Virus record (IMG/VR): IMGVR_UViG_3300033146_001150
Location: 1 to 64,000 of that record
DNA length: 64,000 nt
From: a virus
Reading direction: 5' to 3' (one strand)
In this document: piece after piece, positions 42,434 through 64,000 of the stretch
How positions within the stretch are numbered: position 1 is the stretch's first letter
How the letters are laid out: each line of letters starts with the position of its first letter
The notes under the pieces: model-generated
What the model was told of the DNA's origin: nothing
The model's database searches: none
The model's input: only the letters and a program-made list of their open reading frames with translations
Translations under genes and position numbers: made by a program

Positions 42434-42823
42434 ATGAGTTTACTTGCAGAAATGGCAAATAGATATATTTGGGAAGGTGATGATTCTGAAGTAGAAGAAG
42501 CACCAGAAGTAGAAGAAGAAACCCCAGAATATGAGCCTGAAGTTGTTGATGGTGAAGAAGCACCAGAAGTAGAAGAAGAAGTTGATGGTGGTCAGTCTAT
42601 AGTAGATACCCTCATGAGCGTAGCCTCTGAATATGAAAAAACAATCCATAGTATGCTTAAATATGCAGCCAACACGGATGATGATGAAAATGTATTTGAT
42701 GATGCGTTGCGTTATTATGAGGATAATATTCTTAATGCCGATGAATCTGAAGAGGCTGAAGAGGCTGAAGAGGCTGAAGAGGCTGAAGATGATATTGAGT
42801 ATGAAGACGAAGAATTAGAATAA
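42434..42823 (+). CDS. Acidic head-targeted protein (prohead core-like)
   Basis: The 129-residue protein is extremely acidic, with two copies of EEAPEVEEE and a C-terminal run of EEA repeats. The N-terminus MSLLAEMANRYIWEGDDS fits the tag family, with a possible cut after IWE. A helical part near 55-80 (SIVDTLMSVASEYEKTIHSML) is the only ordered region. T4 gp67, an acidic prohead core protein cut by the gp21 protease, has the same character. The end of the protein at 7391 (QANRFIYE) resembles the start of this one. Confidence 0.6.
   Translation: MSLLAEMANRYIWEGDDSEVEEAPEVEEETPEYEPEVVDGEEAPEVEEEVDGGQSIVDTLMSVASEYEKTIHSMLKYAANTDDDENVFDDALRYYEDNILNADESEEAEEAEEAEEAEDDIEYEDEELE
42748..42790. repeat. 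9-bp tandem repeat coding Glu-Glu-Ala
   Basis: GAGGCTGAA repeats about four and a half times. It is prone to length change by slippage without a frame shift. Confidence 0.85.
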
Positions 42824-42840
42824 TACTAAACGGAGGTATT

Positions 42841-44223
42841 ATGAAGTATTCAGATTATTTTTATGAAGCTGATAGCGATAATAGCAAGAAAGCTCTAGGA
42901 TTTATTCCCCACCCATCTACCGTAGGTAAAACATCAACAGGTCCTAATATGTGGCAAAAGGATGATTTCCTAATCAATAGATGGGTTAAAAAGGGTCTAT
43001 TTAGTTTAGCACATATGCTTGATGGTAAACCAAAACCACCAAAAATCAAAAAGGTTAAAGTTAAGGTTAGTGATTTTGATTTCTACCCAATAACTAGAGT
43101 TGGATTTGATCGTATGGGGTCTTTATTATCTAAAGATTTATTAAACCCTACAAAAGAAAAACTTCATGTAGTTAAAATGAATACCGTTGATTTTGATAAA
43201 CCATCAGCAGTTTCTGCTCGTACTAATGATCCTGAGATATTATCTGCTGATATGTATACTTTAAATAATAAAGGTCGCATTATAGTAATATCCAATCTAT
43301 ATAAAGATGATAAGGGAAAACATAAATTAGAATATATGATTGGTGTTGATAAAAAAGGGAGAGATTATTTCCTTTCTATATTAGGTAAATCATTTAAGTC
43401 TTGGCTTGCTTCTAATTTTCAAGACCCTAGTAAAAATCCAACAATGAGTGATGATGATGAAAGATCACCACAAGAACAAGCTATTGATAATGCTACTGGT
43501 GGTGATTATGAAGATTATATTGACGATGAACCGGAAGAGGAAGAATCTACCGAAGAGGAACCCGAAGAGGAAAAGGTTCCAGAAGAGGAACCCGAAGAGG
43601 AAAAGGTTCCAGAAGAGGAACCCGAAGAACCAAAGAAATCTAAACCTAAAAAAGAATTACCTGTAAAGAATAGTTTTGGTGGTTTTGGTTATATTATATC
43701 TGATTCTCATGATCTGTATAATAACGTGGTGTCTAATGTGGTTGATAAAGAGTCGAAATATGATCGTATAGTGTTGGTTAAACCGGAAACTCGTAAAAAT
43801 ATGACTGGTTTTAAAATTATATTTGCACCTAAAGATGAAAACGCTGATAATGCAAAATATAATAGAACTATGTATATATTCAAGAGTAAAACTAAAAAAA
43901 ATAAAGATGATTATTCAGCTCTTGTATTTAGAGGTAAAGATAGTTTTAAAGATGCCATGTCTTTATTCTTTAAAAAGATGTTGTCTGGTCCTAAATCTAT
44001 AGAACAATTAGCTCATAAGATTAAATGGCATCAACAGTCTCCTATCAATATAGATGATCCCGCCGTGTATGCTAGTTGGGATTCTACAGAAGTCCCTTCT
44101 AAAGATGTGGCATTTTCTAAGAAGATATTAGATGCTGCTAAAAATGAAAATATTGAATATGTATATTCTTCATTTAGTGATGATCTGAGGATGAATGAAC
44201 TTTATAATATAATTATAAAGTAA
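42841..44223 (+). CDS. Head-targeted protein with acidic linker repeats
   Basis: The 460-residue protein starts MKYSDYFYEADSDNSKK, a tag-type N-terminus with YFYE/A. Residues about 60-195 form one folded part (DFDFYPITRVGFDRMGSLL, DYFLSILGKSFKSWLASNFQD). An acidic linker with PEEEPEEEKV repeats (about 230-265) follows. A second folded part about 280-460 repeats elements of the first (GFKIIFAPKD, KDAMSLFFKKML). The gene at 44267 has a similar [14 protein letters not shown] block. No enzymatic motif is seen. It follows an AACGGAGGT site in a late operon. Confidence 0.6.
   Translation: MKYSDYFYEADSDNSKKALGFIPHPSTVGKTSTGPNMWQKDDFLINRWVKKGLFSLAHMLDGKPKPPKIKKVKVKVSDFDFYPITRVGFDRMGSLLSKDLLNPTKEKLHVVKMNTVDFDKPSAVSARTNDPEILSADMYTLNNKGRIIVISNLYKDDKGKHKLEYMIGVDKKGRDYFLSILGKSFKSWLASNFQDPSKNPTMSDDDERSPQEQAIDNATGGDYEDYIDDEPEEEESTEEEPEEEKVPEEEPEEEKVPEEEPEEPKKSKPKKELPVKNSFGGFGYIISDSHDLYNNVVSNVVDKESKYDRIVLVKPETRKNMTGFKIIFAPKDENADNAKYNRTMYIFKSKTKKNKDDYSALVFRGKDSFKDAMSLFFKKMLSGPKSIEQLAHKIKWHQQSPINIDDPAVYASWDSTEVPSKDVAFSKKILDAAKNENIEYVYSSFSDDLRMNELYNIIIK
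43541..43626. repeat. 27-30-bp coding repeat in acidic linker
   Basis: CCCGAAGAGGAAAAGGTTCC recurs in tandem, two full copies and a part, coding EEPEEEKVP. Confidence 0.8.
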
Positions 44224-44228
44224 ATATA

Positions 44229-44236
44229 TATAAATA
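44229..44236 (+). promoter_or_regulatory. T4-type late promoter box
   Basis: TATAAATA, 31 bases before the ATG at 44267. Confidence 0.75.
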
Positions 44237-44266
44237 ATTAAATAGATATAACAAAATGGAGATACT

Positions 44267-45877
44267 ATGAATTTTAGAGATTATTACGAAGTATCATCAA
44301 TAACAGAACAATATTTTAATAACGACGAAGAGTTATTAGATGAAAATGTATTTGGTGACATAGCAAAAGGTGCTATGAAGATAATAGGGGCTGATTTAAA
44401 AAATATAGCTAAACGTAATAGACGAAAAGTTATTAAAATAAATAATATTAATAAATATTTTAAACAAGCTACTGAAATATCACAAAAAGGATATTCGAGT
44501 TTAGACGCAGCTCTTCGTGCTAGTGAAGCTATGTGGGACAGTAAATCTAAAAATAAAAGTTGGGTTGATAAATATGTAATGAAGCGGGGTATGGTTTTTG
44601 TTAAAAACTCAAAAGAGGCATTTATACCAACTAAAGGTGATGTTGATGCTCAAAAAGAGAAGTTAGATAGAATGTTCAGTGCCTATGATTTAAGTGATGA
44701 TTTTAAGATTAATGATATTACTATATACGAATTAACTAACGGGGGGCAAATATCATTAATGAGTATAACTGATCCTTATACTGGTAATGATGATTTAGTA
44801 ATGAATAACCCAAATAAACCAACAAGAGCATTAAAAGCACCTCAAGGGGAACAAATATTTTTTATAGCTCAACGTAATGCTAATGATTGGTTTCAAGATA
44901 ACTTAGGAATGTCATATAAACGTTGGTTAAGTGTTGAGGGTGCATTATCTCCTGCTGCATACGCAAAATATGTGCAGAAAATGCAACATACTATTAATTC
45001 TAGTGGTGATGTATCAGCTAAACCTGGCGAAAAAATAAAAAATTATGTTAGAACAGCTAAAGGTAATATTATAGACACTGTTATGGATTCAATAAACTCT
45101 ACTTATGGTAGTGGTGTTACTGAACAGGGAGGAACTCCTGATGGGCAGACTGTATATGATATAAATTCAGGTGATTTATCAGGTAATATAGCATTTATAT
45201 CTACACCAGATGGTGATGGTAAAATTATAGTATCTCCTAATTTATTACAAGATATGGCTAAAAAGGGAGTAGATTCTCTTAAAAAATATAAAGCTGTTTA
45301 TGGTGCTCCAGCTAAACCTAAACCTGCTCCAGCTAAACCTAAACCTGCTCCAGCCCCTGCTAAGAAGACTGAACCGGTTAAGAAGACTAAACCGGTTTTT
45401 GAACCGGTTAAGCCGGTTAAGAAGACTGAACCGGTTAAGAAGACTGAACCGGTTTTTGAACCGGTTAAGCCGGTTAAGAAGGCTCCAGCTAAGAAGACTG
45501 AACCAGCTAAAAAAGCTCCAGCTAAGAAGACTCCAGCTAAGAAGGCTCCAGCTAAGAAGACTGAACCAGCTAAGAAGACTGAACCAGCTAAAAAAGCTCC
45601 AGCTAAGAAGGCTCCAGCTAAGAAGACTGAACCAGCTAAGAAGACTAAACCAGCTAAAAAAGCTCCAGCTAAGAAGACTCCAGCTAAGAAGACTCCAGCT
45701 AAGAAGACTCCAGCTAAGAAGACTCCAGCTAAGAAGACTCCAGCTAAGAAGACTGAACCAGCTAAAAAAGCTCCAGCTAAGAAGGCTCCAGCTAAGAAGG
45801 CTCCGGCTAAGAAGGCTCCAGCTAAGAAGACTACAAAAAAAGAATCAACTAATACTACCGGAAAACTTTTAATATAA
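44267..45877 (+). CDS. Head-targeted protein with histone-H1-like Lys/Ala/Pro tail
   Basis: The 536-residue protein begins [17 protein letters not shown] (tag-type, ITE/Q). The N-terminal 340 residues include helices at 30-110, then a folded part with [18 protein letters not shown] and [18 protein letters not shown]. From about residue 350 to the end the chain is a repeat of PAKK, TPAKK and TEPAKK units with over 50 lysines, like the tails of histone H1 or bacterial AlgP/HctB proteins. Such tails bind and compact DNA. With its own late promoter this looks like an internal head protein that contacts packaged DNA. Confidence 0.7.
45298..45837. repeat. 15-18-bp tandem coding repeats of the PAKK tail
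   Basis: AAGAAGACTCCAGCT and near variants repeat about 30 times over 540 bases. This gives the Lys/Ala/Pro tail and also long open frames in other phases that are not genes. Confidence 0.9.
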
Positions 45878-45888
45878 CGAGGATGTAT

Positions 45889-46152
45889 ATGGATTTTAAA
45901 AAATTAGATAATTTAATGGAAGAATTTGTTTTATGTGAAGATGAAGAAAATAGCGTAATCAAAATATTCTTTTCTGATTTAGACCTAGACGCTCGTAAAA
46001 GAGTATTAGAAGCTATCGATGGGACTAGTGATATGTTTGATGTGTTTAGCGATGATATAGTTAGAAATAAACTAGAAGATGAACTATCAACCAAACCGTT
46101 ATTAATGACAACTGCACTTGAGCTAATGAGTAAGTTAAATATCGAAGTGTGA
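45889..46152 (+). CDS. Small acidic late protein (hypothetical)
   Basis: ATG at 45889 follows GAGGATGTAT. The 87-residue product begins [21 protein letters not shown], weakly like the tag family. It continues [20 protein letters not shown], a block seen in small phage proteins of unknown role. It is the last gene of the late unit starting at 44229 and is closed by a strong terminator. Confidence 0.6.
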
Positions 46153-46174
46153 TTTATATCATATATGAACAAAT

Positions 46175-48179: not shown

Positions 48180-50204
48180 ATGAATAGTAAACAATTTATA
48201 TCTGATATTATCGTATATTCGAAGTATGCTAAATATGATCAGGATTTAAAAAGACGAGAAAACTGGTCAGAAATCATTATGAGAAATGCGGATATGCACG
48301 CTAGACGATATCCTGAACTTGCAGATGAAATCTACTATGTATATGCTAAATACGTAATCCCTAAAAAAGTATTTCCGTCTATGCGTAGTCTTCAATTTGC
48401 TGGAAAAGCGATTGAAGTAACTCCAAACAGAATCTTCAATTGTGCATTTTCAGCGGCAGACCACCCAGCAATCTTTTCAGAAACTATGTTTAATTTATTA
48501 GGTGGTTGCGGTGTAGGGTACTCTGTACAAAAACATCATGTTGAACAGCTCCCTGAAGTTAAAAAACAAAAAAATAAAAGAATTAAACGATATTTAATTC
48601 CAGATTCTATTGAAGGATGGTCTGAGGCTATTAAAGTGCTCATGAAATCGTATTTCAAAGGATCATCTAAGGTTATGTTTGATTATTCTGATATTAGACC
48701 TAAAGGTACTGAATTGGTAACTGCTGGTGGTAAAGCACCTGGACCCGCACCTCTTAAAGAATGTATTGATATTATCACTGAAAAATTAGATAGATTGATT
48801 GAAGATGGTGACGGATCTCATAAATTATTACCAATTGAAGTGCATGATATCCTATGTGTTATATCTGATGCCGTTCTTGCTGGTGGTATTCGTAGATCTG
48901 CATTAATATCTTTATTTTCGCTCGATGATGAGTTAATGTTAACGGCTAAAGGTAATTTTAAATTTAAATCTACTGTAGCTCCGAAAATTAATGGTGATAA
49001 TGTTATTCTTGAAGGGTCATATAAAGGAGTTCGTAAAGAGGTATATATCACAAAAAACCAATACGATAACTATAAGGAAACAGGAACATTGCCTTGGTAC
49101 TTCTTTGAAGAACAACGTGGTCGTGCAAATAATTCTGTGGTATTAGAATATGATAAAGTCACACGGGAAGATTTTGATAGAATTTGGAAAATTGTAGAGA
49201 ATTCAGGGGCGGGTGAGCCTGGTGTGTATTGGACTCATGATAGAGATCTTGGGACAAATCCATGTGCTGAAATTTCAATAAAATCTAAAGGATATTGTAA
49301 TCTTACAGAAGTTATAGCTGATGGCATTGACACTCAAGAAGAATATAACAATAGAGCACGAGCAGCATCGTTTTTGGGTACTTTACAGGCAGGTTATACC
49401 AACTTCCATTATCTAAGACCTGAGTGGCAAGATAACGCCGAGGATGAAGCCTTATTAGGCGTTTCTATGACAGGTATCGCTTCTGGTGATGTGTTAAAAC
49501 TTGATATGGTTGAAGCAGGAAAAGCTGCCGCAGATGAAAATGAACGTGTGGCTAAATTAATTGGTACTAATAAAGCTAAACGAGTAACTACTGTTAAGCC
49601 TAGTGGAACAGCATCTCTTGTTGCTGGAACTAGTTCTGGTATTCATGCTTGGCACGCACCATATTATGTGAGACGTATCCGTATCAATAAAGATGAAGCA
49701 CTGTATTCATATTTAAGTGATAAACTTCCTACTTCATGGTTAGAAGATGATATGTTCAGTCCTGATACAACAGCAGTCCTTGCAGTTCCTGTAAAAGCCC
49801 CTGATGGTGCTATCTTTAGAGATGAATCATCTGTTGATCTTATGGAGCGTGTTAAAAAAGTTCATGATGAATGGATTGCTAATGAATATACACATAGAGA
49901 AGGTTTAAACACCCACAATGTGTCTGTTACTGTATCAATAGCTGATGATGATTGGGGTAGTGTAGGTGATTGGATGTGGGAAAATCGACATTCATATCAT
50001 GGTATTTCAGTGTTACCGTTGAATACAGGAACATATATGCAAATGCCATTCACTGATTCTACAAAAGAAGAATATGATAGATTAATTGCTGAAGTAGCAA
50101 ATCTTAATATTAATCTCGATGATGTTATTGAGGAACACGATAATACGGATTTAAGCGGTGAATTGGCATGTTCTGGTGGATCATGTGAAATTTCAACAAT
50201 CTAA
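48180..50204 (+). CDS. nrdJ: Class II (adenosylcobalamin-dependent) ribonucleotide reductase
   Basis: The 674-residue protein resembles monomeric ribonucleoside-triphosphate reductases (Lactobacillus RTPR type). Visible are NCAFSA near 86 (substrate-side cysteine), GGCGVGYSVQ near 109, NPCAEIS near 360 and YCNLTEV near 371 (active-site cysteines and glutamate), VKPSGTASLVAGTSSGIH near 480 and a C-terminal CSGGSC pair at 664-669 for re-reduction. It needs B12 from the host. No class I nrdA/nrdB is present in the window. The stop overlaps the next small ORF. Confidence 0.93.
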   Translation: MNSKQFISDIIVYSKYAKYDQDLKRRENWSEIIMRNADMHARRYPELADEIYYVYAKYVIPKKVFPSMRSLQFAGKAIEVTPNRIFNCAFSAADHPAIFSETMFNLLGGCGVGYSVQKHHVEQLPEVKKQKNKRIKRYLIPDSIEGWSEAIKVLMKSYFKGSSKVMFDYSDIRPKGTELVTAGGKAPGPAPLKECIDIITEKLDRLIEDGDGSHKLLPIEVHDILCVISDAVLAGGIRRSALISLFSLDDELMLTAKGNFKFKSTVAPKINGDNVILEGSYKGVRKEVYITKNQYDNYKETGTLPWYFFEEQRGRANNSVVLEYDKVTREDFDRIWKIVENSGAGEPGVYWTHDRDLGTNPCAEISIKSKGYCNLTEVIADGIDTQEEYNNRARAASFLGTLQAGYTNFHYLRPEWQDNAEDEALLGVSMTGIASGDVLKLDMVEAGKAAADENERVAKLIGTNKAKRVTTVKPSGTASLVAGTSSGIHAWHAPYYVRRIRINKDEALYSYLSDKLPTSWLEDDMFSPDTTAVLAVPVKAPDGAIFRDESSVDLMERVKKVHDEWIANEYTHREGLNTHNVSVTVSIADDDWGSVGDWMWENRHSYHGISVLPLNTGTYMQMPFTDSTKEEYDRLIAEVANLNINLDDVIEEHDNTDLSGELACSGGSCEISTI

Positions 50205-50365: not shown

Positions 50366-52261
50366 TTATTCAGCTCTTAAAATTTTTCGCACCGGACGAG
50401 GATCTTTTCGTGGAAGCTCAGTCTCCTCATAGTCTTCATCATATTTAACATCAGCATCAGGGTATCTGTCCTTAACAACGTCATACACTTCTTTAGTTGA
50501 TAAAATTAATGGATATGGTAATTCATCTAAATCGAATAAATCTAATAATTGAGTTACGTATTCAGCTGACTCTTCATCTTCTAAGTTATTATAATTAGTA
50601 GATAATATAGAATTGCTTAATTCTCTTAATGGGATTTCTGTTTCATTTTGTTTATTGTCGTATATAAATTTTAGATCTTCAATATTGCCCATCATTAATG
50701 CTTCAATTATATCATACTTATTAAACACTCCATCATCATCATCAATATCATTCTCTTTTTTATATGCACTAATCAATAAGTCGCTTACCTCATCATTATT
50801 ATATCTATTAGATCTTTTTACATAATGTTTAGGTATTGATAAGTCATGCTTATCCATATAATCAAAAACAATGTTAACTATCTCAGTATTTTTACTATCT
50901 ATAGCTTCTTGAAGCAAATCAAGGTTTATGTTATATATATCGCTGTAAAAATCAGTAGATAATAACATACTTAATATTTCTGGATTTTTTACTCTCATTG
51001 CTGAGTATATAGGATCATCATCATCTGGCATAATTCCAATATCTAATGCCATTTTCAATAAATCAGGATTATTGGTTTTATTAATTAAATAATCCAATTC
51101 GTGTCCTGATGTTGTTGGGTTATTTTCTAACGCTTTACGTATCCATTCTTCATTACCAGTAACTGTTACTTTATTTAAAGGTATATTCTTCCAATTAGCT
51201 CCCCAATCTATCACATTCTCTATCATATTAGGATGTCCTCCTATGAAAGCATGAGCCAACGTCAAATCATCCATTTTAACTGTTTTAAATTTAGATAAGA
51301 ATTTTATAATATCTTCTTTATTATATCGAACTGCGTTATTTAATGCTGATGAGTGGGGGACATATCCATCATCAATCATTTCTTTCATACCCTCAATATC
51401 ATCATCAATTATATGTGATATAAATTTCTTTTCAACTTTAAACTTATCACGCTCATCATCTAAGTTATCTATTTCTGGTTGTATGTTATTTAATATAGAC
51501 TCTAACGGTATATCGTATTTTTTTAGATACTCATCATACTCATCGTTCCATCCAAACCCATTATTCCCTTTATAGTTATCTAAATTATCCATTGCTCGTA
51601 TTTCATTTATATATACTGTGCCTGGATTATTTTCACTTTCAGTAACACGTATAGCAGTCTTATGGAATTTATCATCTTTATCTAAGTTATTATTTATGAT
51701 ATATATCATCAACCCTTTACGGTCTAATACATAAACACAGAACATGTGTTGAGCATCATAATCAACTCCTTTTGATGTATTAGCTGCTGTACACCATCGA
51801 GATCCTTGACCTTGCTTTACTGATGCTGATTTTGTCTGAGGTACTCCAACAATTATAGAACCATCTTCAGATTCCCATAATATATTAACTCGTTCTGATG
51901 ATGGTGTATTATCTTCATCATCATTGGATTTTATTGATTTTTGAGTTGTTTGTATGTCAGAAACCCATCTCTCCGGGTCTTTTTTGTATGTATTTATTGG
52001 TTCTAAATTATTATTAGACCGACCTACATTAGAATCATATATATCAACCAATTCTCCTATATTATTAATAGTAGAAAAATAGTCCCAATTTCTAGCAATC
52101 CATCCCATATATTTATACAATGATGGTGATGGTAATGACTGTTTCAATTCAGTGAATGCATCCATATCAAATGAAGTTTTCCCTGACTGGGCTAATTGTT
52201 TAGCTTCTTTTTGAGATTCATTCATTGACAATGATTCTTGTAAATACGATAATATAGACAT
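50366..52261 (-). CDS. Head-targeted protein with WCT domain and ankyrin-like repeats
   Basis: The 631-residue protein begins MSILSYLQESLSMNESQKE (tag-type, two possible cut sites LQE/S and MNE/S). Residues about 110-220 hold the WCT domain: VGVPQTKSASVKQGQGSRWCTAAN, then MFCVYVLDRKGLMIYIINN. From about 290 to 530 are ankyrin-like repeats of 30-35 residues (SALNNAVRYNKEDIIKFLSK, LAHAFIGGHPNMIENVIDWG). A late box lies at 52287 and an AGGAG site precedes the ATG. I infer a packaged protein with a partner-binding repeat domain. Confidence 0.65.
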   Translation of the reverse strand: MSILSYLQESLSMNESQKEAKQLAQSGKTSFDMDAFTELKQSLPSPSLYKYMGWIARNWDYFSTINNIGELVDIYDSNVGRSNNNLEPINTYKKDPERWVSDIQTTQKSIKSNDDEDNTPSSERVNILWESEDGSIIVGVPQTKSASVKQGQGSRWCTAANTSKGVDYDAQHMFCVYVLDRKGLMIYIINNNLDKDDKFHKTAIRVTESENNPGTVYINEIRAMDNLDNYKGNNGFGWNDEYDEYLKKYDIPLESILNNIQPEIDNLDDERDKFKVEKKFISHIIDDDIEGMKEMIDDGYVPHSSALNNAVRYNKEDIIKFLSKFKTVKMDDLTLAHAFIGGHPNMIENVIDWGANWKNIPLNKVTVTGNEEWIRKALENNPTTSGHELDYLINKTNNPDLLKMALDIGIMPDDDDPIYSAMRVKNPEILSMLLSTDFYSDIYNINLDLLQEAIDSKNTEIVNIVFDYMDKHDLSIPKHYVKRSNRYNNDEVSDLLISAYKKENDIDDDDGVFNKYDIIEALMMGNIEDLKFIYDNKQNETEIPLRELSNSILSTNYNNLEDEESAEYVTQLLDLFDLDELPYPLILSTKEVYDVVKDRYPDADVKYDEDYEETELPRKDPRPVRKILRAE

Positions 52262-52338: not shown

Positions 52339-52680
52339 TTAAGATGCATATGCACCGTCAACATCCCCCCAAGATAACATCTTAGACATTAACTCTTGTC
52401 TCTGTTTTTTATCTTTTGCTTTTAGCAATTCTCGCTGAATTTTTCTATTATGTTTTTGGATTTTTCGCCGTTGGTTCCAATATTCATGATCATCACCTTC
52501 TTTTTTCTTACGATGGTTTGATATAACTTTATTGGTTTTATCTACGGCAAAATCTTTAACACCTTTAGCAGCATCTTTAACACTATCAACTGCAATATCT
52601 TTAATATCATCAACGATGCCTTCATCTACTACATCATTATCAGAATCTTCATATAACTGTATATAATCTAACATATCCAT
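52339..52680 (-). CDS. Small head-targeted protein with basic helical body
   Basis: ATG at 52680 follows ATGAGGTATAGT and gives 113 residues; 52692 is less likely. The start MDMLDYIQLYEDSDNDVVDEG is nearly the same as in the next gene (MDFLEYLNLYEDSNLDT). Then comes IVDDIKDIAVDSVKDAAKGVKDFAV, an amphipathic helix, and a strongly basic helix-rich end (HRKKKEGDDHEYWNQRRKIQ). It has the size and charge of T4 internal proteins IPI-IPIII. Confidence 0.6.
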   Translation of the reverse strand: MDMLDYIQLYEDSDNDVVDEGIVDDIKDIAVDSVKDAAKGVKDFAVDKTNKVISNHRKKKEGDDHEYWNQRRKIQKHNRKIQRELLKAKDKKQRQELMSKMLSWGDVDGAYAS

Positions 52681-52695: not shown

Positions 52696-52989
52696 TTATT
52701 CTAGTCCGAATCCATAAGCTAAATTCTTTTTTCGTTCTCGGTTAGCTTCAAAGTCACGCATTGCTTGTTTTTTATCAGCCTTTTTTCTTTTAGCCATTTC
52801 TCTATCAGCATCTTTAATATTACGATTGACTTGTCTTTTCCTTTTTATTTCTTTTATTTCTTCTGGAGTTTTCTTTTTGAAAACATCTTTAACATCATCA
52901 ATGATTCCCTCATCAACTTCGTCTTCATCTAACTCTTCAGTATCAAGGTTAGAATCCTCATATAAATTTAAATACTCTAAAAAATCCAT
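52696..52989 (-). CDS. Small head-targeted protein, paralogue of the next gene
   Basis: The 97-residue protein starts MDFLEYLNLYEDSNLDTEEL and continues DEGIIDDVKDVFKKKTPEEIKEI, then a Lys/Arg-rich helix (KRKRQVNRNIKDADREMAKRKKADKKQ). It is a paralogue of the downstream gene in its first 40 residues. It follows AAGGAGATTAAT. A likely cut after the tag would release a small basic helical peptide, as for T4 internal proteins. Confidence 0.6.
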   Translation of the reverse strand: MDFLEYLNLYEDSNLDTEELDEDEVDEGIIDDVKDVFKKKTPEEIKEIKRKRQVNRNIKDADREMAKRKKADKKQAMRDFEANRERKKNLAYGFGLE

Positions 52990-52999: not shown

Positions 53000-54781
53000 T
53001 TATATATACATTCTATTTTCGAATTTTATTGTTTGTTGTGGAGCCTCACTATTATTCTCCTTATAAAATCGTTCGACACTACGCAATTTACCTTCTAAAT
53101 CTGGGAGATATGTATATATATTATCAAAAAAGTCTAATATATCATCAACAGACATTTCAGTATCACCATACGCCATCATATACCATTTAACAACCTCAGA
53201 TATTAATTTTTTCGTTGCGTCCACTAATTTTAGCTTATCATGTCTAGATATGTCTTTTATTCCGTGCTTAGTTAATCTGTCTATGGTATGGCGAAGATAT
53301 AAAATAGGTCCTACTGATTTTAATGTTTTATATTTTTCAGCATAGTCTACGCCATTCGACTCTTTATATTCCATAAACTTAGACTGTGCATCAGCCACAG
53401 CTTCCTCCACACCTTCCATACAATCAACGTCTTCATCAGCACAATTTTCAGATACTAGTTCTTTTATTTTATTTAACGACATATCACCTGTTTTGTTATA
53501 TGTATATAATACATATGCCTTCATCAGATAAGGATCAGGATTCCCATCAGATTGAAATACTTCATCTAATATTTCCCATTCATCTAATGTATTCTCAATA
53601 GATCCTAAATCTTCAGTAAATACAACCCCTGGGTTATCTAATATATAATCAGCTAATCGTTCAAATGAAACGTCACTACTATCTAATAATTCAAAATATT
53701 CACCAACATCAGAAACTATATCAGCCTTTATTAAGTCGGCTATAGCATAAGAATCAATACTACCTTCAACCCATTCTTGTACATAATCTATAGCGTCCCC
53801 GCCATCACGTAGAGGATCGGTATGATATATAATATCATCAGCATCAATACCATCTATATCATCAGCAAGGTTATATATTTCACTCACAACATCAAAATGT
53901 AAATTATCATCTATATCATCAGCAGTCCATTCGCTATCATATATCAATTCTGCAACTTCATCGGTCAGTATCTCTTTTCCTCTATCTGATATATAAAGCA
54001 TACCATCTAAAATTTCACCTAATCTAGCGAACGCTTCGTCTCTAACAGCGTCTGGATTATCTTCTTCTGGAAATCCTTTTTCTTCAATCCAATCCAGTAA
54101 TCCAGTACCAGCAAACTCTTCTCTAGGATCAAAAAATTCATTTTCGCAGTTTTTATTTTCAACTGTATGATCTTTACCTTGTTCCCAAAACATTTGCCAT
54201 TTTTTTCTGGTCTTTTTATCATAAATGATATATAAATCTCCGTTAGCGTACATATCGTTATTAAAATAACATACGTTATCGTCTTGATGACCAGTACACC
54301 AAGCACACCCAGACGCATAATACTGAGATGCTTGCATTGTTTTAGGTACTACGACAATATACTCATTGTCGTTATATACAACTTCAGAATTTTTTTCTGC
54401 TAATTTCTTTCGGGCTTTTTCTTTATCTTTTTTAGATAAGAGTAATCCATCTTTTTCTGCATTATCCATAACTTCTATGAATGTTAATAAATCTAATTTA
54501 TTAATGTCTCGGTGTTCTGGTTTTAAATTAGTTTTTAGTCTATCGTATGTTTTTAATAAATTTGATAGTTTTGGTATATCCACAACGTCTAGAGTTTCTT
54601 TATTTTTAATAAGCCAATCTACATAGTTTCCTACTTTATCTAATCCGTTTGATGTTGGGTCTAACTCAACTATAGAATTGAATAAATTCCTATCAAGTTT
54701 ACCATCATAAAATTTATTAAATTTATCATCAGCCGTGATCTCATTGATCATACCTTCTTGTATATACTGAAATATGCTCAT
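53000..54781 (-). CDS. WCT-family head-targeted protein (paralogue 1)
   Basis: The 593-residue protein starts MSIFQYIQEGMINEITADDK (tag, then INE). Residues about 12-220 are shared with three genes at 58608-63135: FNKFYDGKLDRNLF, DPTSNGLDKVGNYVDWL, a basic helix LLSKKDKEKARKKLAEKNSEV, then IVVVPKTMQASQYYASGCAWCTGHQ, GDLYIIYDKKTRKKWQMFWE. The C-terminal 370 residues differ from the paralogues and are acidic and helical. The WCT part resembles a small-ligand or enzyme core but I cannot name it. It is in an operon behind the late box at 55121. Confidence 0.65.
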   Translation of the reverse strand: MSIFQYIQEGMINEITADDKFNKFYDGKLDRNLFNSIVELDPTSNGLDKVGNYVDWLIKNKETLDVVDIPKLSNLLKTYDRLKTNLKPEHRDINKLDLLTFIEVMDNAEKDGLLLSKKDKEKARKKLAEKNSEVVYNDNEYIVVVPKTMQASQYYASGCAWCTGHQDDNVCYFNNDMYANGDLYIIYDKKTRKKWQMFWEQGKDHTVENKNCENEFFDPREEFAGTGLLDWIEEKGFPEEDNPDAVRDEAFARLGEILDGMLYISDRGKEILTDEVAELIYDSEWTADDIDDNLHFDVVSEIYNLADDIDGIDADDIIYHTDPLRDGGDAIDYVQEWVEGSIDSYAIADLIKADIVSDVGEYFELLDSSDVSFERLADYILDNPGVVFTEDLGSIENTLDEWEILDEVFQSDGNPDPYLMKAYVLYTYNKTGDMSLNKIKELVSENCADEDVDCMEGVEEAVADAQSKFMEYKESNGVDYAEKYKTLKSVGPILYLRHTIDRLTKHGIKDISRHDKLKLVDATKKLISEVVKWYMMAYGDTEMSVDDILDFFDNIYTYLPDLEGKLRSVERFYKENNSEAPQQTIKFENRMYI

Positions 54782-55915: not shown

Positions 55916-56338
55916 ATGTCTTTTTCAGATTACATAATCATTGAACAGCTATTATCCGAATTGGATGACATTTTGGTTAATGGTAGAATATTATTCGAAT
56001 CTCAAAATGATTTTGCGTTTAGTGATAAAGTTGATGCTATAGGTAGCCCTACAGTAAAAGCTATATTTAAATCTTTAGGTGCGGCTGCTATGTATGGTGG
56101 TAAAAAAGCTAATCAGCTTGGTAAATTAATAACACCAACCGGAATATCTGAATTAAAGTCGGCTTTAGCTGATGGATTCTTTAATAGTAGTGAAATTAAA
56201 TATATCACTAGAAAATTAAAAGACCCTACCCGATATAAAGGATATTCTGGATTTGAGCAATTTATTACAGATCTAAAAGAAGATAATCCAAAATTATTAG
56301 ATAATTTAAAAAGATTAGCACTAACAATTGTAGCATAA
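55916..56338 (+). CDS. Head-targeted protein with helical body (hypothetical)
   Basis: The 140-residue protein starts MSFSDYIIIEQLLSELDDILVNG, a tag-type start with LSE/L. After about residue 35 it is Ala/Gly/Lys rich and helical (ALGAAAMYGGKKANQLGK-like), with a conserved-looking end FEQFITDLKEDNPKLLDNL. It has its own late box and an AATGGAGAAAGT ribosome site. It is the last gene of the plus-strand block and is closed by a terminator. Confidence 0.6.
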   Translation: MSFSDYIIIEQLLSELDDILVNGRILFESQNDFAFSDKVDAIGSPTVKAIFKSLGAAAMYGGKKANQLGKLITPTGISELKSALADGFFNSSEIKYITRKLKDPTRYKGYSGFEQFITDLKEDNPKLLDNLKRLALTIVA

Positions 56339-56385: not shown

Positions 56386-58017
56386 TTAATCTATTATATC
56401 ATATATATCATCATTAGAATATCCTATTATTCGTAAGAATTTCTTTAATTTATCATCACGAGGAATATCAATATCATCATATGAATCTATAATATCACGC
56501 ATTTCTCCAGTAGATATATCACCGAATATATCATACGCAGACCAATTATCATTTAAATCGTCCCCATCTTCATTCGTTGGTTCGCTTGTAACATAATCTA
56601 CCAATGATGGTAATTGCATATCAGCGGTTAATATATCTATTCCGTTATTTGAAATTTTAGTTCCTATATATTCTGGTACATCTGTAATTATACCAGCATC
56701 AACTAATTTATTGATATCATATATACCAGCATCGTCGTTATATACAAATTCTTGTAGAAGTTCCATTGGTGGTGTTTTTTCTTGTTTAGGATCAACAGGA
56801 GCGAATTCTTCAAGGAAATCTTCCATAGTGAATCCAGACTCTAATAGGAATTGTTCTAAATCAAATCCAATATCTTCCGCAGCATCAAACATAGATACTA
56901 TATGATCTATCGCATTTCCTGAAAATAATCTATTAACAAAAACTGTTCCTTTTTCTGGATTATTTTCATCATACATATCCCATATCTCTTCACTATATAC
57001 TTCTTTAAGTTTTTCATCAAATCCAAGACGAACCATCGATTTTCCTAATATATCAGAAAATTCATCAGCATCATATAATGATACTGGGAATGATCGATCC
57101 TTATAATAATCATCAATCATACGAATGTCATCATCAGAAGTAAATACAGTCACATATTTTGATAAATAAGAACTAACAACATCAACTAATTCAGGAATAT
57201 CTTTTCCGTAAATATCAGTAGATACATATAATCCTTTTTCATAATCATCTTGTTCCTCTACGGGAATAACAAGAGTTCGGGCATATGCATTCTTTAGAAT
57301 ATCGCCTTTATTGGCACTACTGTTAACTACATATGCAATTAATAAATGCCCAACTTCATTATTTAAATATTCTCTATTACACCCATTGACTGCATTTTTA
57401 CAAGACTTCCATTGTTGCTTTGTACTCATACCAGCAACATCATATGGATGTCTACTTAATATAACAGGAGCTTCTATTGGAGCTGTTGTAGTTCTATCTA
57501 ATAACGTCAAAAATAATTTAGAATTATCATCTAATGTTTTAGCCGCATCAGGAGATAGTGTCTTCTTTACAGCTTTAATTAAAGTTTTTAATTTATATTT
57601 ATCTTTACTTGGATCGTAGGCATTATTAAGTTTCTTTTTAATTAAATCGTAATCGTCTGATTCTTCATTAATTTTAACATCCACAAATGTTAAATCACCA
57701 TCTTTATCTGGATTTAATGATATTCTAATATCTGATGGGTTAAACATTGCTCCTGGTTTAGGACCAGAAGCTAAAGCTTCGTTCATATTAGTGAACCATT
57801 CATTAAATTTATCAATATTTTGATCGAATGTTGATCCTACTTTAACAGTTCCTATCGGTATCCGTTGTTTACCTTTAAATATCTCATCATATTTGTCTGA
57901 TATTTCTTTCGGGAGAGTTAACGCATTTTCTTTTCCCTTTTTTGTATATTGTTTAGCTAAAGTGAGTGGTAACCCCTCACTCAACAACATTTCATTTAAA
58001 TACTTTATTACACTCAA
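56386..58017 (-). CDS. Head-targeted protein with WKSC-type domain
   Basis: The gene starts with TTG at 58017, after AGGAGGATCTC, and has a late box at 58042. The 543-residue protein begins MSVIKYLNEMLLSEGLPLT (tag, LSE/G). Around 185-260, VILSRHPYDVAGMSTKQQWKSC and HLLIAYVVN...ARTLVIPVEE resemble a domain of phage and mobile-element proteins with a WxSC core. It is analogous to WCT in the neighbouring genes. The C-terminal 250 residues are acidic and helical, with short repeats on VDYVTSE-like and IYDINKLVDAG blocks. Function unknown. Confidence 0.62.
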   Translation of the reverse strand: MSVIKYLNEMLLSEGLPLTLAKQYTKKGKENALTLPKEISDKYDEIFKGKQRIPIGTVKVGSTFDQNIDKFNEWFTNMNEALASGPKPGAMFNPSDIRISLNPDKDGDLTFVDVKINEESDDYDLIKKKLNNAYDPSKDKYKLKTLIKAVKKTLSPDAAKTLDDNSKLFLTLLDRTTTAPIEAPVILSRHPYDVAGMSTKQQWKSCKNAVNGCNREYLNNEVGHLLIAYVVNSSANKGDILKNAYARTLVIPVEEQDDYEKGLYVSTDIYGKDIPELVDVVSSYLSKYVTVFTSDDDIRMIDDYYKDRSFPVSLYDADEFSDILGKSMVRLGFDEKLKEVYSEEIWDMYDENNPEKGTVFVNRLFSGNAIDHIVSMFDAAEDIGFDLEQFLLESGFTMEDFLEEFAPVDPKQEKTPPMELLQEFVYNDDAGIYDINKLVDAGIITDVPEYIGTKISNNGIDILTADMQLPSLVDYVTSEPTNEDGDDLNDNWSAYDIFGDISTGEMRDIIDSYDDIDIPRDDKLKKFLRIIGYSNDDIYDIID

Positions 58018-58209: not shown

Positions 58210-58611
58210 CTATATATATCGTATTAACTGATTGAAAAACGCAGGGCTACCGATGATGGCTTTTTGTACTATAGGATTGTTAGTTCCTTCGCCATCTAAA
58301 AGCTCTTTCATCCCCAACGGATAATCCATAATTATAGTGTCTCCGTCTATATCACCATTAACTGTGCCGTTACCCTCATTTGGTTGTAATATAATAGTCA
58401 TATCCCTATCTTGGTCTGTGTTAGAAGCATCACTTAAATTGAACGTTGCTCTATACACACCATAATCATTGGGGTCGTCTATAAATGGGTTTGCTGTTTG
58501 ATTGTCAACTAAGGATGTTATATACTCTCGTATTTCATTAGCCATCGCCATTGTTTCCTCAGAAGCCCCTTCAGAAACTAATGATTCATTAATATATTGT
58601 ATTATACTCAT
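58210..58611 (-). CDS. Small head-targeted protein (hypothetical)
   Basis: ATG at 58611 follows GGAGGATATACT and overlaps the stop of the upstream gene; the longer start at 58629 is rejected. The 133-residue product begins MSIIQYINESLVSEGASEE (tag, VSE/G). Then come a helix ETMAMANEIREYITSLVD and a beta-rich part (VYRATFNLSDASNTDQDRDMTIIL, GTVNGDIDGDTIIMDYP). The last gene of the operon from 63135. No function recognised. Confidence 0.6.
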   Translation of the reverse strand: MSIIQYINESLVSEGASEETMAMANEIREYITSLVDNQTANPFIDDPNDYGVYRATFNLSDASNTDQDRDMTIILQPNEGNGTVNGDIDGDTIIMDYPLGMKELLDGEGTNNPIVQKAIIGSPAFFNQLIRYI

Positions 58612-60143
58612 AGTATATCCTCCAGCCATTCTTCATAAGTAGCTTTTAGTTGTTGTTCATATTTTTTGAATCTATTAAATTCTTCTTCACTGATACCTGA
58701 TTCAAGATGTTTATATAAATCATCATGAGCCATCCCAGATAGTCTAGCTGCGATATACACACCATCCAGTGTATTGTCGCCAGTGAAATCATTATCGATT
58801 GCAGTATTGTATACATCCACCCAATCAGTATCTTTAAATTTAGATGCTAAATATGCCACATCATCAGGTGTGATATCAGCACTATGATTTATATAGTTCA
58901 AGAGTGCCATATAAAGATCTGCATAATCAGACGATCCGTCAAAAAATGAATTAATCTCAATATCATCGCCCCGTAATAACAGTTCAATGGTATCTTCTAA
59001 AGTATATCCTTCATCAATAATTGATTCTAATTGATGATAATCAATATCATATACCATTGATGGTATAATATCTTGTTCTATAATATCACTTCCATATACT
59101 TTTTGTGATTGAGAGAATAAGTATTCTAAATCTTCAATTTGATCTGAAAAGAATGCAGGGAATATAACTTCCCAATCACTAATCCCTACATTTTTAGCAA
59201 AGGTAAATGCCTCAATTAATGGTATTGGGTTAAATTCAATATCACCTATATGGTTTGTTACAATACTAATATTATCTGCTGAGTAGTCGGTTTCGTCATT
59301 TAAAAATGTATGAAATTCATTTGTCTGTAATGCAACTGGTAATTCTATATGATTTTCAAGCTCATGTATAGCTTCTTCATATGCAATAAAATTATCTTCT
59401 TCATTATCGTCATAAGTATCACCATGATCTTCCGGAAATCCTTTTTCATTAATCCAATTTAATAAGGCAGTTCCTTCAAACTCTTCTCTTGGTTCAAACT
59501 CCATATTCTTACAATCTTTATATTCTCCGGTATCTTTACCCTGCTCCCAGAACATCTGCCATTTCTGTCTAGTCTTTTTATCATATATGATGTAGATGTC
59601 TCCGTTGACATACAGATCATTATTAAAATAGCATGCGTCATCGTTCTGATGTCCAGTACACCAAGCACACCCAGCAGCATAGTATTGGGACGCTTGCATT
59701 GTTTTAGGTACTACCACTATATGAGTGTCGTCATTATAAACAACTTCAGAATTCTCTTCAGCTAACTTTTTTCTAGCTCTCTCTTTATCCTTTTTAGACA
59801 ACAACACTCCATTTTTTTCAGCATCGTTCATTATAGATATAAATTTAGGTATATCCATTTTATTAATATCTCTATTATCAGGATCTAATTTTGTTTTTTG
59901 TTTATCAAATATTGATAACATTTTACTAAATTTATCAGGATCTATTACATCTAAGCTATCTTTATTTTTCAATAACCAGTCAACATAGTTTCCTACTTTA
60001 GAATCTCCATTTGACGTAGGATCTAAGTTTAATGCCAAATCAAATATATCACGATCAATCTTACCATCATAAAATTGATTGAATTTATCATCTGCGGTTA
60101 TTTCATTAAGTAATGCTTCTTTTAAATATTGTAATACGCTCAT
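58608..60143 (-). CDS. WCT-family head-targeted protein (paralogue 2)
   Basis: The 511-residue protein starts MSVLQYLKEALLNEITADDK. The first 225 residues are nearly the same as in the next gene upstream, with the DPTSNGDSKVGNYVDWLL, LLSKKDKERARKKLAEENSEV, VVVPKTMQASQYYAAGCAWCTGHQ and KWQMFWEQGKDTGEYKDC blocks. The rest (about 285 residues) differs and is acidic and helical. The tag plus a LLNE/I site suggests cleavage after head entry. It ends overlapping the small gene at 58611. Confidence 0.65.
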   Translation of the reverse strand: MSVLQYLKEALLNEITADDKFNQFYDGKIDRDIFDLALNLDPTSNGDSKVGNYVDWLLKNKDSLDVIDPDKFSKMLSIFDKQKTKLDPDNRDINKMDIPKFISIMNDAEKNGVLLSKKDKERARKKLAEENSEVVYNDDTHIVVVPKTMQASQYYAAGCAWCTGHQNDDACYFNNDLYVNGDIYIIYDKKTRQKWQMFWEQGKDTGEYKDCKNMEFEPREEFEGTALLNWINEKGFPEDHGDTYDDNEEDNFIAYEEAIHELENHIELPVALQTNEFHTFLNDETDYSADNISIVTNHIGDIEFNPIPLIEAFTFAKNVGISDWEVIFPAFFSDQIEDLEYLFSQSQKVYGSDIIEQDIIPSMVYDIDYHQLESIIDEGYTLEDTIELLLRGDDIEINSFFDGSSDYADLYMALLNYINHSADITPDDVAYLASKFKDTDWVDVYNTAIDNDFTGDNTLDGVYIAARLSGMAHDDLYKHLESGISEEEFNRFKKYEQQLKATYEEWLEDIL

Positions 60144-60144: not shown

Positions 60145-61659
60145 CTAATAAGCCTTTCCTAGAAATCTATCTTCATAAGAGTCTATATCATTTATATTAA
60201 ATCCTTTAGAATTTTTCAATTCATCAATCAAATCTTCTTTAGATTTTCCAATAGTTCTACCAAATTGATATAACATGCTTATATCTTCAGGATCAACTAA
60301 ATTATTAGCTATTAACACCATCCACATATGAGCTAGATTGATATTTGATAAATATGTTATAGCATCTTCAAGTTCATCTTCAGATAATACACCATCATTA
60401 ATAAATTCAATAAGAGCTAAATACAAATCAGCATTATGCAATTCCCCACCAGTAAGGAAATTTTCAACATCATCATTATTATAATTTAGTAGCATAGTTA
60501 TTATGTCCTGAAGTCTAAATCCTATATCATATATAGCATTTATCACATTAGAATCAACATACTCTAATAATTCTGGTATCAACGTATTCAGCATATCAGT
60601 ATAGTATTCTACGTTTGCGGTTTCATTAAAGAAATGTTCTAATTTAGTTATATCATTAGAAAAGAATTCGGGAAATACAGATTGCCATGCCTCTGCTGGT
60701 GCTTTAATATCTTTCATAAATTGAAATAAATCAATTAATGTACCTCGGTCATATTTAACGAATCCTATATTGCTGATGTCTGGGTGATAATTCTGAGCCG
60801 AATGATTAGTATTATCTCCGAAAAATTCAAAGAACTGATCCGTTCTCAATATACGAGGAAGTTCAATGGATTCCATAAAGTCATCAAGAGCTTGTTCATA
60901 ATTCTCGTGTTGATCTTCTTCAGCTGCATAGGTATCGCCATGTTCTTCCGGAAATCCTTGCTCATTAATCCAATTTAATAAATCCGTATCCTTAAACTCT
61001 TCTCTTGGCTCAAACTCTATATTCTTACAATCTTTATATTCACCAACATCTTTACCCTGTTCCCAAAACAGCTGCCATTTATTTCTTGTTTTTTTGTCGT
61101 ATATAATGTAGATGTCTCCGTTGACATACATATCATTATCAAAATAACATACATTATCATCCTGGTGTCCTGTGCACCACGCACACCCAGCCGCATAGTA
61201 TTGGGACGCTTGCATCGTTTTAGGGACCACAACTATGTGTTTATCATCATTATAAACAACCTCAGAGTTCTCCTCAGCTAATTTCTTTCTAGCTCTCTCT
61301 TTATCTTTCTTAGATAAAAGAATTCCATCCTTCTCGGCTTTATTCATAACTGATATGAATTTAGGTATATCCATTTTATTAATATCTCTATTATCAGGAT
61401 CTAATTTTGTTTTCTGCTTATCGAAAATAGATAGCATCTTACTGAATTTATCAGAATCAATTATATCTAAACTATCTTTATTTTTCAATAACCAATCAAC
61501 ATAATTACCTACTTTGTAATTACCATTAGACGTTGGATCAAGTTCGAGTGCTTGATCGAATATTTCACGATCAAGCTTACCATCATAGAATTTATTATAT
61601 TTATCATCAGCAGTAATCTCATTAATTAATACCTCTTTTAAATACTGTAATACACTCAT
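60145..61659 (-). CDS. WCT-family head-targeted protein (paralogue 3)
   Basis: The 504-residue protein starts MSVLQYLKEVLINEITADDK and is the closest relative of the gene at 58608 over residues 1-260. Shared features include AAGCAWCTGHQDDNVCYFDND, GDIYIIYDKKTRNKWQLF and FPEEHGDTYAAEE. The C-terminal half is again different (FFNETANVEYYTDMLNTLIPEL, YLSNINLAHMWMVLIANN). Pattern: constant N-terminal module, variable C-terminal module. One base separates it from the downstream gene. Confidence 0.65.
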   Translation of the reverse strand: MSVLQYLKEVLINEITADDKYNKFYDGKLDREIFDQALELDPTSNGNYKVGNYVDWLLKNKDSLDIIDSDKFSKMLSIFDKQKTKLDPDNRDINKMDIPKFISVMNKAEKDGILLSKKDKERARKKLAEENSEVVYNDDKHIVVVPKTMQASQYYAAGCAWCTGHQDDNVCYFDNDMYVNGDIYIIYDKKTRNKWQLFWEQGKDVGEYKDCKNIEFEPREEFKDTDLLNWINEQGFPEEHGDTYAAEEDQHENYEQALDDFMESIELPRILRTDQFFEFFGDNTNHSAQNYHPDISNIGFVKYDRGTLIDLFQFMKDIKAPAEAWQSVFPEFFSNDITKLEHFFNETANVEYYTDMLNTLIPELLEYVDSNVINAIYDIGFRLQDIITMLLNYNNDDVENFLTGGELHNADLYLALIEFINDGVLSEDELEDAITYLSNINLAHMWMVLIANNLVDPEDISMLYQFGRTIGKSKEDLIDELKNSKGFNINDIDSYEDRFLGKAY

Positions 61660-61668
61660 AGAGTCCCC

Positions 61669-63135
61669 TTAAATATCAGACATTCTTAATTGAGGATTCT
61701 CATCTCTAGTTTCTGAATCATCATTTTTTATTTTTATTTTCTGTAGATCATCTTCTAATCCATTTAAGAATTCTTCTATATCATCTCCAGGAACTCCACG
61801 TAAATTAGTGATTTTAGATAAAAGATCACCAAATGCATAGATAATATCATCTATACTATCATCGATATCGTTACTATGTGCAGTATACCATGCTCGTATG
61901 ACATCAGCACCTTCGTCAGCGTCTCCATATTTATGTTCTGTGCTGTATATGGTATCTAATATATCATGTATTGTTGAGTCTGCATCAAATAAACGGGGCT
62001 GATCTGCTAAAAAGTCTGGATTGTTATCTAACACTTCAGATAAATCCACATCATACCCAGCAACTGATATTGCTGATGTTATAACTGAAGGGTTTTCTAT
62101 GTCAATTAAATGATTACTTTTCATTTCATCTAATATGCCTTCAGCTGAATCTAATATCGTAGAGGCTTCTTCATTTAAAAAGCGTGCCGCAGTATCATTA
62201 TACTCTTCAGTTATTCGTTCAACTTCATCGTTATAGTCTTCATCGCCTTCACTAACTTCGAGGTGTTGTTCTAAATAATCTTCCAATTCTCCATAATAAT
62301 CAATGAACATTTCAAGTTTATAATTAAGATGGTCTCGTAATTCAGCAGCTACCTGATTTTGTAACGCATCATTGCCACCAAAATGATCTTTATGGTATTC
62401 AGCAACATTACTCATAATAGCATCTAATCCAGCTTCTTCAGGAAATTCATTTTCATCAATCCATTTTAATAAATCAGTCCCGGCAAATACTTTCCATGGA
62501 TCGAATGGGGAATTGTTGAATGTTTTATATTCAGGACTTCTCCCAGCACCATTAGGTTTAAACATTTGCCACATTTCTTTTGTTTTATTATTTCTGATTA
62601 TGTATAAATCTCCATTTTCACCATAATGATCAAACATACATCTATCATCTTGATATGCAGTACACCAAGCAGAACCCTTCCCCATAAATTGAGAAGCCTC
62701 TTTTGTTTTTGGTGATATTACAATGAAATCATCATCTTTATATACTATTTCAGATTCTTTAAATGCTTTTTGTTCTCTAGCTTTTGCTCTATCTTTTTTA
62801 GATAGTAATACGCCAGATTCTTCGGCATCTTTCATTACTGATACAAATTTCTTATAATCCATCTTATTGATATCTCTATCAGCTGGATCTAATTTAGTTT
62901 TTAATCTATGGAAAGTTTGTAGTAATGATGTAGTGTCGTCATTAATAGCATCGGGATTCAATAATAACCAGTCTACATAGTCACCAACCTTATTATCTCC
63001 TTTTGATGTTGGATCAGTATCAACCGCCTTATCAAAAGTATCTCTATCAATTTTTCCATCATAGAATTTATTAAATTTTTCGTCTGCTGTTATCTCGTTA
63101 AGCAGAGCTTCCTGTAGATATTGGATAATGCTCAT
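61669..63135 (-). CDS. WCT-family head-targeted protein (paralogue 4)
   Basis: The 488-residue protein starts MSIIQYLQEALLNEITADEK, with a late box at 63169 and CGGAGTATAT before the ATG. The N-terminal module is more diverged than in paralogues 2 and 3: VISPKTKEASQFMGKGSAWCTAYQDD, GDLYIIRNNKTKEMWQMFK. WCT is kept but the CAWCTGH cysteine and histidine are not. The C-terminal part is very acidic (EVSEGDEDYNDEVERITEEY). First gene of the operon running to 58210. Confidence 0.65.
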   Translation of the reverse strand: MSIIQYLQEALLNEITADEKFNKFYDGKIDRDTFDKAVDTDPTSKGDNKVGDYVDWLLLNPDAINDDTTSLLQTFHRLKTKLDPADRDINKMDYKKFVSVMKDAEESGVLLSKKDRAKAREQKAFKESEIVYKDDDFIVISPKTKEASQFMGKGSAWCTAYQDDRCMFDHYGENGDLYIIRNNKTKEMWQMFKPNGAGRSPEYKTFNNSPFDPWKVFAGTDLLKWIDENEFPEEAGLDAIMSNVAEYHKDHFGGNDALQNQVAAELRDHLNYKLEMFIDYYGELEDYLEQHLEVSEGDEDYNDEVERITEEYNDTAARFLNEEASTILDSAEGILDEMKSNHLIDIENPSVITSAISVAGYDVDLSEVLDNNPDFLADQPRLFDADSTIHDILDTIYSTEHKYGDADEGADVIRAWYTAHSNDIDDSIDDIIYAFGDLLSKITNLRGVPGDDIEEFLNGLEDDLQKIKIKNDDSETRDENPQLRMSDI

Positions 63136-63168
63136 ATATACTCCGTTATTATTTTAATGTTATAGTGA

Positions 63169-63176
63169 TATTTATA
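63169..63176 (-). promoter_or_regulatory. T4-type late promoter box
   Basis: TATAAATA on the minus strand, 34 bases before the start at 63135. It heads the operon of three WCT-family genes and 58611. Confidence 0.75.
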
Positions 63177-63178
63177 TA

Positions 63179-64000
63179 TTATTCATCATTTTGTTTTCGA
63201 ACAACGGGTCTTTTTGGGGGACGATTTGCCATTGGTATACCATATTTATTAGCCAAATCTATATATTTCTGTCCTGGTAATAAATCCGTCCTATGAGTAA
63301 AATTGCTATCTTCATCTCCTAAAAATTTAAATGCGTATTCAATCCCATTTGGAATATTAGTATATTTTTTATATATCACTGGATCTACAACACGACCTTC
63401 GTCATCTGAAATAGTAGCACCAGAATCTCTAATAAGTTTTATAATTTCAGGATTTCCAGATTTAATAGCAAGATATATTGTGCTCAGTGCAGGAATTCGT
63501 GTATTTTTTGGTTCAGCACCAGCATCGACATATTTTTTTACTAAATCAACATCCTTCGCTCGTATAGCCTCATGTAAGGATGGATATCCTGGTACGATTC
63601 CCAATTCATCGGCTAAATCAGTAAACGGAGTACCTTCTATGTATTTTTGATTATCTTCAGCGTGTTTATATGTGTATGGGGTCTGTTCCACACCATCTAT
63701 ATTGTATACATATTTAATAATTTCAGGATCTCTAGTCTCAAATGCAGACTTCATGACATAACCAATATTATCTTTATTTAACATTGCTCCACCTTCAACC
63801 GCCCGTTTAATCACATCAAGATCCTCTGTAATTTGGATTACATCTGATAAATTAACATTTTCATATGAAAGAGTTGGTAAGTCTTTAATAATATTATATA
63901 TTGGATAACTCCATGATCTTAGAAGTATTTTCATAGTAGAGTCATTTGGTTTTACGGTTTTATAATTATCTAAGAAATATTCAACTAAGTCTGTACTTCT
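63179..64000 (-). CDS. Ankyrin-repeat protein, 5' end cut by window edge
   Basis: The frame stays open from the window edge, with 22 codons upstream of the ATG at 63934 (reading STDLVEYFLDNYKTVKPNDS). The true start is therefore outside, and 273 residues are visible. Repeats of about 33 residues are seen: AVEGGAMLNKDNIGYVMKSA, SLHEAIRAKDVDLVKKYVDAG and TIYLAIKSGNPEIIKLIRDSG, which fit the ankyrin consensus. The C-terminus is basic (RPPKRPVVRKQND). The missing part may hold a tag and WCT domain as in the ankyrin-like protein at 50366. Confidence 0.75.
   Translation of the reverse strand, partial: RSTDLVEYFLDNYKTVKPNDSTMKILLRSWSYPIYNIIKDLPTLSYENVNLSDVIQITEDLDVIKRAVEGGAMLNKDNIGYVMKSAFETRDPEIIKYVYNIDGVEQTPYTYKHAEDNQKYIEGTPFTDLADELGIVPGYPSLHEAIRAKDVDLVKKYVDAGAEPKNTRIPALSTIYLAIKSGNPEIIKLIRDSGATISDDEGRVVDPVIYKKYTNIPNGIEYAFKFLGDEDSNFTHRTDLLPGQKYIDLANKYGIPMANRPPKRPVVRKQNDE

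Follow-up and report, generated by a model that had tools for sequence, protein, structure and literature searches.

Fifteen proteins of a T4-like phage fragment share an N-terminal tag resembling the T4 capsid-targeting sequence, suggesting an expanded head cargo

Why should proteins with different bodies, encoded in a single fragment of a phage genome, begin with the same short peptide? The question was raised by a 64,000-nucleotide stretch of viral DNA (the window; positions 1 to 64,000 of IMG/VR record IMGVR_UViG_3300033146_001150), in which a sequence-only reading had described a large family of late proteins with a tag like that of T4 internal head proteins. The source record comprises 68,594 bp and 76 genes, as called with a simple gene caller, and looks like a fragment. 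Its gene order and family matches were T4-like and included a UvsW helicase, UvsY, UvsX, a gp46/47-type nuclease, a family-B DNA polymerase, a gp55-like late sigma factor (13961..14341, + strand; phrog_234, E 9.6e-19) and two gp14-like neck genes. Judged by these predicted replication, late-sigma and neck genes, the phage is T4-like. Its nearest long relative, a 211,777-bp contig (G001), was collinear with the record at approximately 25–45% protein identity (39% for DNA polymerase).

A strict tag motif was defined as ^M-x(1,2)-[LIVMFY]-xx-[YF]-[LIVMFY]-x-E (h, below, denotes the hydrophobic class), while a loose version omitted the final x-E. The strict motif occurred at 11 of the 76 gene starts. 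Shuffling the N-termini gave an expectation of 0.13 and never more than 2 in 2000 rounds, and internal positions gave one of 0.22. The loose motif occurred at 15 starts, versus 1.7 expected upon shuffling. This search of protein starts, which the sequence-only reading had proposed, bore out the claim of a common N-terminal pattern. The accompanying claim of a second L/I-x-E was likewise confirmed: among the 15 tagged proteins, 13 had an L/I/V/M-x-E at residues 11–20, whereas shuffling would give 4.2; of the 61 untagged proteins, 10 had one. With the rest of the record included, 13 of the tagged genes begin within the window and two beyond position 64000. Two members had also been placed at the left of the window, at 7381 and 8215. 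The former has an exact tag; the latter starts with MEFDNKLFEGILTEAK, which fails the motif, and this open reading frame was removed from the family. As the tag adjoins the start codon, a translation-start or leader signal conserved at the DNA level could also be envisaged. However, the same residues were encoded by different codons, with an entropy across the tags of 1.04 bits at third positions versus 0.47 bits at second positions. The conserved unit is therefore the peptide and not the DNA, which largely refutes a DNA-level signal and makes it extremely improbable.

In the T4 internal protein IPIII (MKTYQEFIAE), residues 4 and 7 are important in targeting and residues 8 and 10 in cutting, and the gp21 protease cleaves after L/I-x-E (PMC9026906). 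The window tag, h3-x-x-[YF]6-[L/I]7-x8-E9, shows the IPIII spacing shifted towards the N-terminus by one residue. It contains the cleavage site, and its docking residues are three apart, as in T4 (h3/[YF]6 versus Y4/F7). All 15 tagged proteins carry h3 and [YF]6 at the docking positions, and 14 have L/I-x-E in their first 15 residues, the exception being the product of 42841, with F-Y-E. The tag is short and falls within the first 10–19 residues, as is the case for T4 capsid-targeting sequences. Further likenesses to IPI, IPII and IPIII are the 10-residue N-terminal tag with hydrophobic or aromatic docking residues and an L/I-x-E gp21 site, predicted late expression, and the presence of one tag on different bodies. 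The two systems differ in the start of the tag (MS[IVF]xxYLxE versus MKTYQEFIAE) and in the cargo: whereas the T4 internal proteins are basic, most of the approximately 15 predicted tagged proteins of the window phage are acidic (pI 4–5), and they are multidomain and reach 1062 aa.

A weighted profile was built from the 15 window tags only and scored on other genomes without adjustment. Among 69 scored CDS in a 50-kb stretch of T4, the six highest-ranking proteins were gp2, trna.3, IPIII, IPII, gp21 and gp24, five of which belong to a ten-protein head set of the analyst's choosing (hypergeometric p=1.3e-4). IPI ranked 28 of 69, and gp22, gp67 and gp68 also scored low. The best T4 score belonged to gp2 (MAIFQIINES; L112 16062-16886). 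In G001, the best four scores were those of small tagged proteins from the structural/late region (143901, 143604, 92095 and 142894), with three proteins encoded near the head genes (80045, 84780 and 99138) lower on the list. Other T4-like viral contigs, 0.84 Mb in all, yielded five more high-scoring starts, for example MKSFSSFIQEA and MLKFTQFITES, and the tag type is therefore not confined to the window phage.

A docking peptide for a different site, such as a membrane, the tail or baseplate, or a replication or assembly site, might likewise be short, amphipathic and late, as this tag is, and in T4 the N-terminal part docks independently of cleavage (PMC9026906). This possibility is considered unlikely: the tag lacks signal-peptide character, L/I-x-E is built into it and repeated, and the T4 proteins retrieved with the profile were mostly head or core proteins.

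The bodies behind the tag fell into nine families. Four proteins (all on the − strand), encoded at 53000..54781 (MSIFQYIQEGMINE, 593 aa), 58608..60143 (MSVLQYLKEALLNE, 511 aa), 60145..61659 (MSVLQYLKEVLINE, 504 aa) and 61669..63135 (MSIIQYLQEALLNE, 488 aa; TATAAATA 41 nt upstream), have approximately 240 N-terminal residues in common, including a W-C-T-[AG] core. The same WCTA region was found in three further products, encoded at 50366..52261 (−, MSILSYLQESLSMNE, 631 aa; TATAAATA 33 nt upstream), at 63179-64942 of the record (−, MSVLAYITESLYKN, 587 aa; its C-terminal part, 63179..64000, lies in the window) and at 65025-68213 of the record, entirely beyond the window (1062 aa), which brings the total to seven. 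Their C-termini are variable and in part, as in the products of 50366 and 63179, resemble ankyrin repeats. Since the Pfam ankyrin model scored 27.2 bits for 50366 (curated cut-off, 27.3) and 25.1 bits for 63179, and an AlphaFold2 model of an ankyrin-type protein (pLDDT 59) was too poor to decide the fold, these ends are termed ankyrin-like only; in the 1062-aa protein the Pfam ankyrin model found no match.

Two small − strand proteins resemble each other (52339..52680, MDMLDYIQLYED, 113 aa; 52696..52989, MDFLEYLNLYED, 97 aa; both with the loose motif). The other tagged proteins are encoded at 6857..7381 (−, MSFMDFLNESEV, 174 aa, strict motif, near gp14-like and uvsW genes), 42841..44223 (+, MKYSDYFYEA, 460 aa, strict motif, F instead of L/I at P3), 44267..45877 (+, 536 aa, pI 9.9, loose motif, TATAAATA 38 nt upstream), 55916..56338 (+, MSFSDYIIIEQLLSE, 140 aa, loose motif, TATAAATA 38 nt upstream), 56386..58017 (−, MSVIKYLNEMLLSE, TTG start, 543 aa, TATAAATA 32 nt upstream) and 58210..58611 (−, MSIIQYINESLVSE, 133 aa, strict motif). 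The body of the 42841 product is unique, and a homologue search of phage records found none. The 44267 product, whose Lys/Pro/Ala-rich C-terminus matched the histone H1-like HC2 family (6.4e-10), is plausibly a DNA-binding head protein; this histone-like tail gave the sole informative match in the defence and NCBIfam libraries. Its final ~150 residues consist of Lys/Pro/Ala repeats resembling Hc2. The sequence-only reading, which counted at least 13 tagged proteins with unrelated bodies, was thus correct with respect to the diversity of bodies and overstated their independence, as seven share the WCTA region and 52339 and 52696 are alike.

This kinship would be expected if the tag were merely the inherited N-terminus of one duplicated gene family, without a targeting role: the WCTA domain links 7 of the 15 tagged proteins, and 52339 and 52696 are paralogues. 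However, the further body families have the tag alone in common, and the window-tag profile retrieved T4 internal-head proteins. Moreover, the HPYDVAGMST domain of the 56386 product is common to proteins of jumbo phages that begin differently, without a tag, which fits addition of the tag. Inheritance without targeting is therefore regarded as quite improbable. That the tag of 56386 is a clean N-terminal add-on was also considered and set aside, as the alignment was too gapped at the N-terminus; only the absence of the tag from the homologues stands.

Predicted promoters place the tagged genes among the late genes. An exact TATAAATA box was present within 70 nt of 7 of 15 tagged genes versus 5 of 61 untagged genes (p=0.0013). 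The remaining tagged genes lie downstream in same-strand runs whose first gene bears the box, namely 7802 to 6857; 42434 to 42841; 54791 through 53000 and 52696 to 52339; and 61669 through 60145 and 58608 to 58210. The statement that most members stand under TATAAATA boxes was accordingly accurate for seven genes with a box of their own, and applies to the others only through the first gene of their unit. The gp55-like factor is the likely reader of these predicted late promoters. The boxes and the gp55-like gene are in agreement with the late expression of T4 cargo that bears a capsid-targeting sequence.

Processing of the tag would involve a gp21-type protease. No Peptidase_S77 match was obtained in the 68,594-bp record, as expected from its missing head module; none of the gp20-gp24 head genes is present in this fragment. 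G001 did yield a Peptidase_S77 match (E 6e-30), which PHROGs call a head maturation protease and which is adjoined by scaffold and major head protein genes. When aligned to T4 gp21, this protease retained the equivalents of His85 and Ser140. In addition, the N-terminus of G001 gp23 reads AFGSLNE|A, as compared with AFGSFLTE|A in T4, and therefore has an L-x-E|A site at nearly the same place.

Relatives of the WCTA proteins were sought in other phages. At E<=1e-3, single-protein and alignment scans of viral_contigs and INPHARED returned none, and the WCTA profile matched nothing in six T4-like contigs, G001 among them; the WCTA cargo is therefore not common to the nearest relative. Distant homologues were found by tblastn (E<=10) in CcrBL9, PA5oct, MIJ3-type phages and Salicola phage SCTP-2, and an alignment search (A7) located 18 WCTA loci in viral contigs. 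An AlphaFold2 model of the WCTA region (pLDDT 78) matched proteins of PA5oct, CcrBL9 and uncultured phages in BFVD, as well as ankyrin-type proteins of metagenomic Marseillevirus bins. Neither fold nor sequence comparison of the domain with the PDB gave anything usable, and literature searches found no description of it.

The PA5oct homologue EST35_0205 (E 4e-7) is annotated as a structural protein detected by ESI-MS/MS, and its start, MKLFEVFTLYED, is close to the start of 52696, MDFLEYLNLYED. A nearby PA5oct virion protein, EST35_0202, begins with MKSFRDYYDAS, close to the start of 44267. SCTP-2 has a cluster of five WCTA paralogues with starts of the form MK[VI]xHITQYLFES. Like the tagged WCTA proteins, EST35_0205 and the SCTP-2 proteins consist of an N-terminal leader, a conserved region, the WCTA domain and a C-terminus, although their full-length similarity to the window proteins is low. 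Among WCTA N-termini of other viruses, 8 of 17 contained h..hh.E within 25 residues, versus 1.8 in shuffled sequences, four of the eight being SCTP-2 paralogues. On PA5oct as a whole, the window-tag profile did not separate MS-detected from other proteins (p=0.92), and the top-scoring protein was MS-detected. A looser motif occurred in 9 of 65 virion proteins versus 6 of 350 others (p=8e-5), an enrichment that is suggestive only, as the motif was framed after those N-termini had been read. Several MS-detected PA5oct proteins (L106-L111) start with M[KR][IL]x[DE]h..., a pattern also seen post hoc and possibly a PA5oct-specific leader.

Taken together, the tag probably represents a T4-type capsid-targeting sequence, and the tagged proteins an expanded repertoire of head cargo processed by a gp21-type protease. 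This interpretation of the gene data is well supported, not proven. In its favour are the T4 register, the L/I-x-E sites, the recovery of T4 head proteins, the late promoters with the gp55-like factor, the gp21-type protease and gp23 site of G001, and the virion-detected WCTA homologue of PA5oct. Against it count the profile result on PA5oct, the rank of IPI, the acidic cargo and the F-Y-E of 42841. The original reading was supported in part; the bodies are unrelated only to some extent, and 8215 falls outside the family. By its predicted components, the system amounts to an expanded form of the T4 internal-protein system. The resemblance of the tag to a T4 head-targeting signal makes it probable that an unusually large load of protein is packed alongside the DNA of this phage. 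In giant phages of the phiKZ/SPN3US type, many different ejection proteins are likewise reported to be packed with the DNA and processed by a prohead protease (PMC10052503, PMC7411985). The window phage differs from these in having T4-like genes for replication, the late sigma factor and the neck.

In the proposed scheme, h3-x-x-[YF]6 would, late in infection, dock each tagged protein on the prohead core as it grows. Cleavage by a gp21-type protease of the prohead would follow after E9, and in many cases also after the second L-x-E at about residue 14, so that the mature protein would lie free in the head by the time DNA enters; for the window phage, both packaging and cleavage are inferred. 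The cargo would be broad, with nine body families that include the basic histone-like protein, and seven large members would combine the tag, a constant WCTA module and a variable, in some cases ankyrin-like, C-terminus. The variable ends of the WCTA sub-family may have a role in the host; ejection of the cargo into the cell and an effect of these ends on host targets are speculative. More tentatively, and less likely than not, tag and WCTA domain could form a cassette of general use for head loading and delivery, in which C-terminal effectors, some ankyrin-like, are exchangeable; other large phages such as SCTP-2 and PA5oct would use it with a variant leader. If the capsid-targeting interpretation is correct, a nine-residue tag allows head cargo to be read straight from phage sequence and provides a list of candidate injected proteins for phages that have never been grown. 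The WCTA family would then move from 'hypothetical protein' to probable virion cargo, and a T4-like head would be shown to accommodate a greater variety of proteins, and bigger ones, than make up the T4 internal-protein set.

Two very acidic proteins are encoded beside tagged genes. The product of 7391..7798 (−; pI 4.1) has no N-terminal tag and ends in SQANRFIYE; sequence and pI make it a possible prohead-core protein. Its neighbour 6857 lies downstream in the TATAAATA unit that starts at 7802. The product of 42434..42823 (+; TATAAATA 41 nt upstream), with a displaced tag-like MSLLAEMANRYIWE, is another possible core protein. ANRFIYE at the end of the former, ANRYIWE near the start of the latter and AANRFI at the end of G001 gp22 (L095 16830-17666) are perhaps a common core-binding motif. 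Elsewhere in the fragment, the two gp14-like neck genes lie side by side (4448-5850), and G001 also has two, which flank its head genes. A 1236-aa protein with many SHAEG-type repeats resembling trimeric adhesin heads (675-4385) is a likely tail fibre. A ribonucleotide reductase and a ThyX-like protein, the latter assigned by eye, are encoded at 48180-50204 and 27103-28467, and the fragment carries 15 tRNAs.
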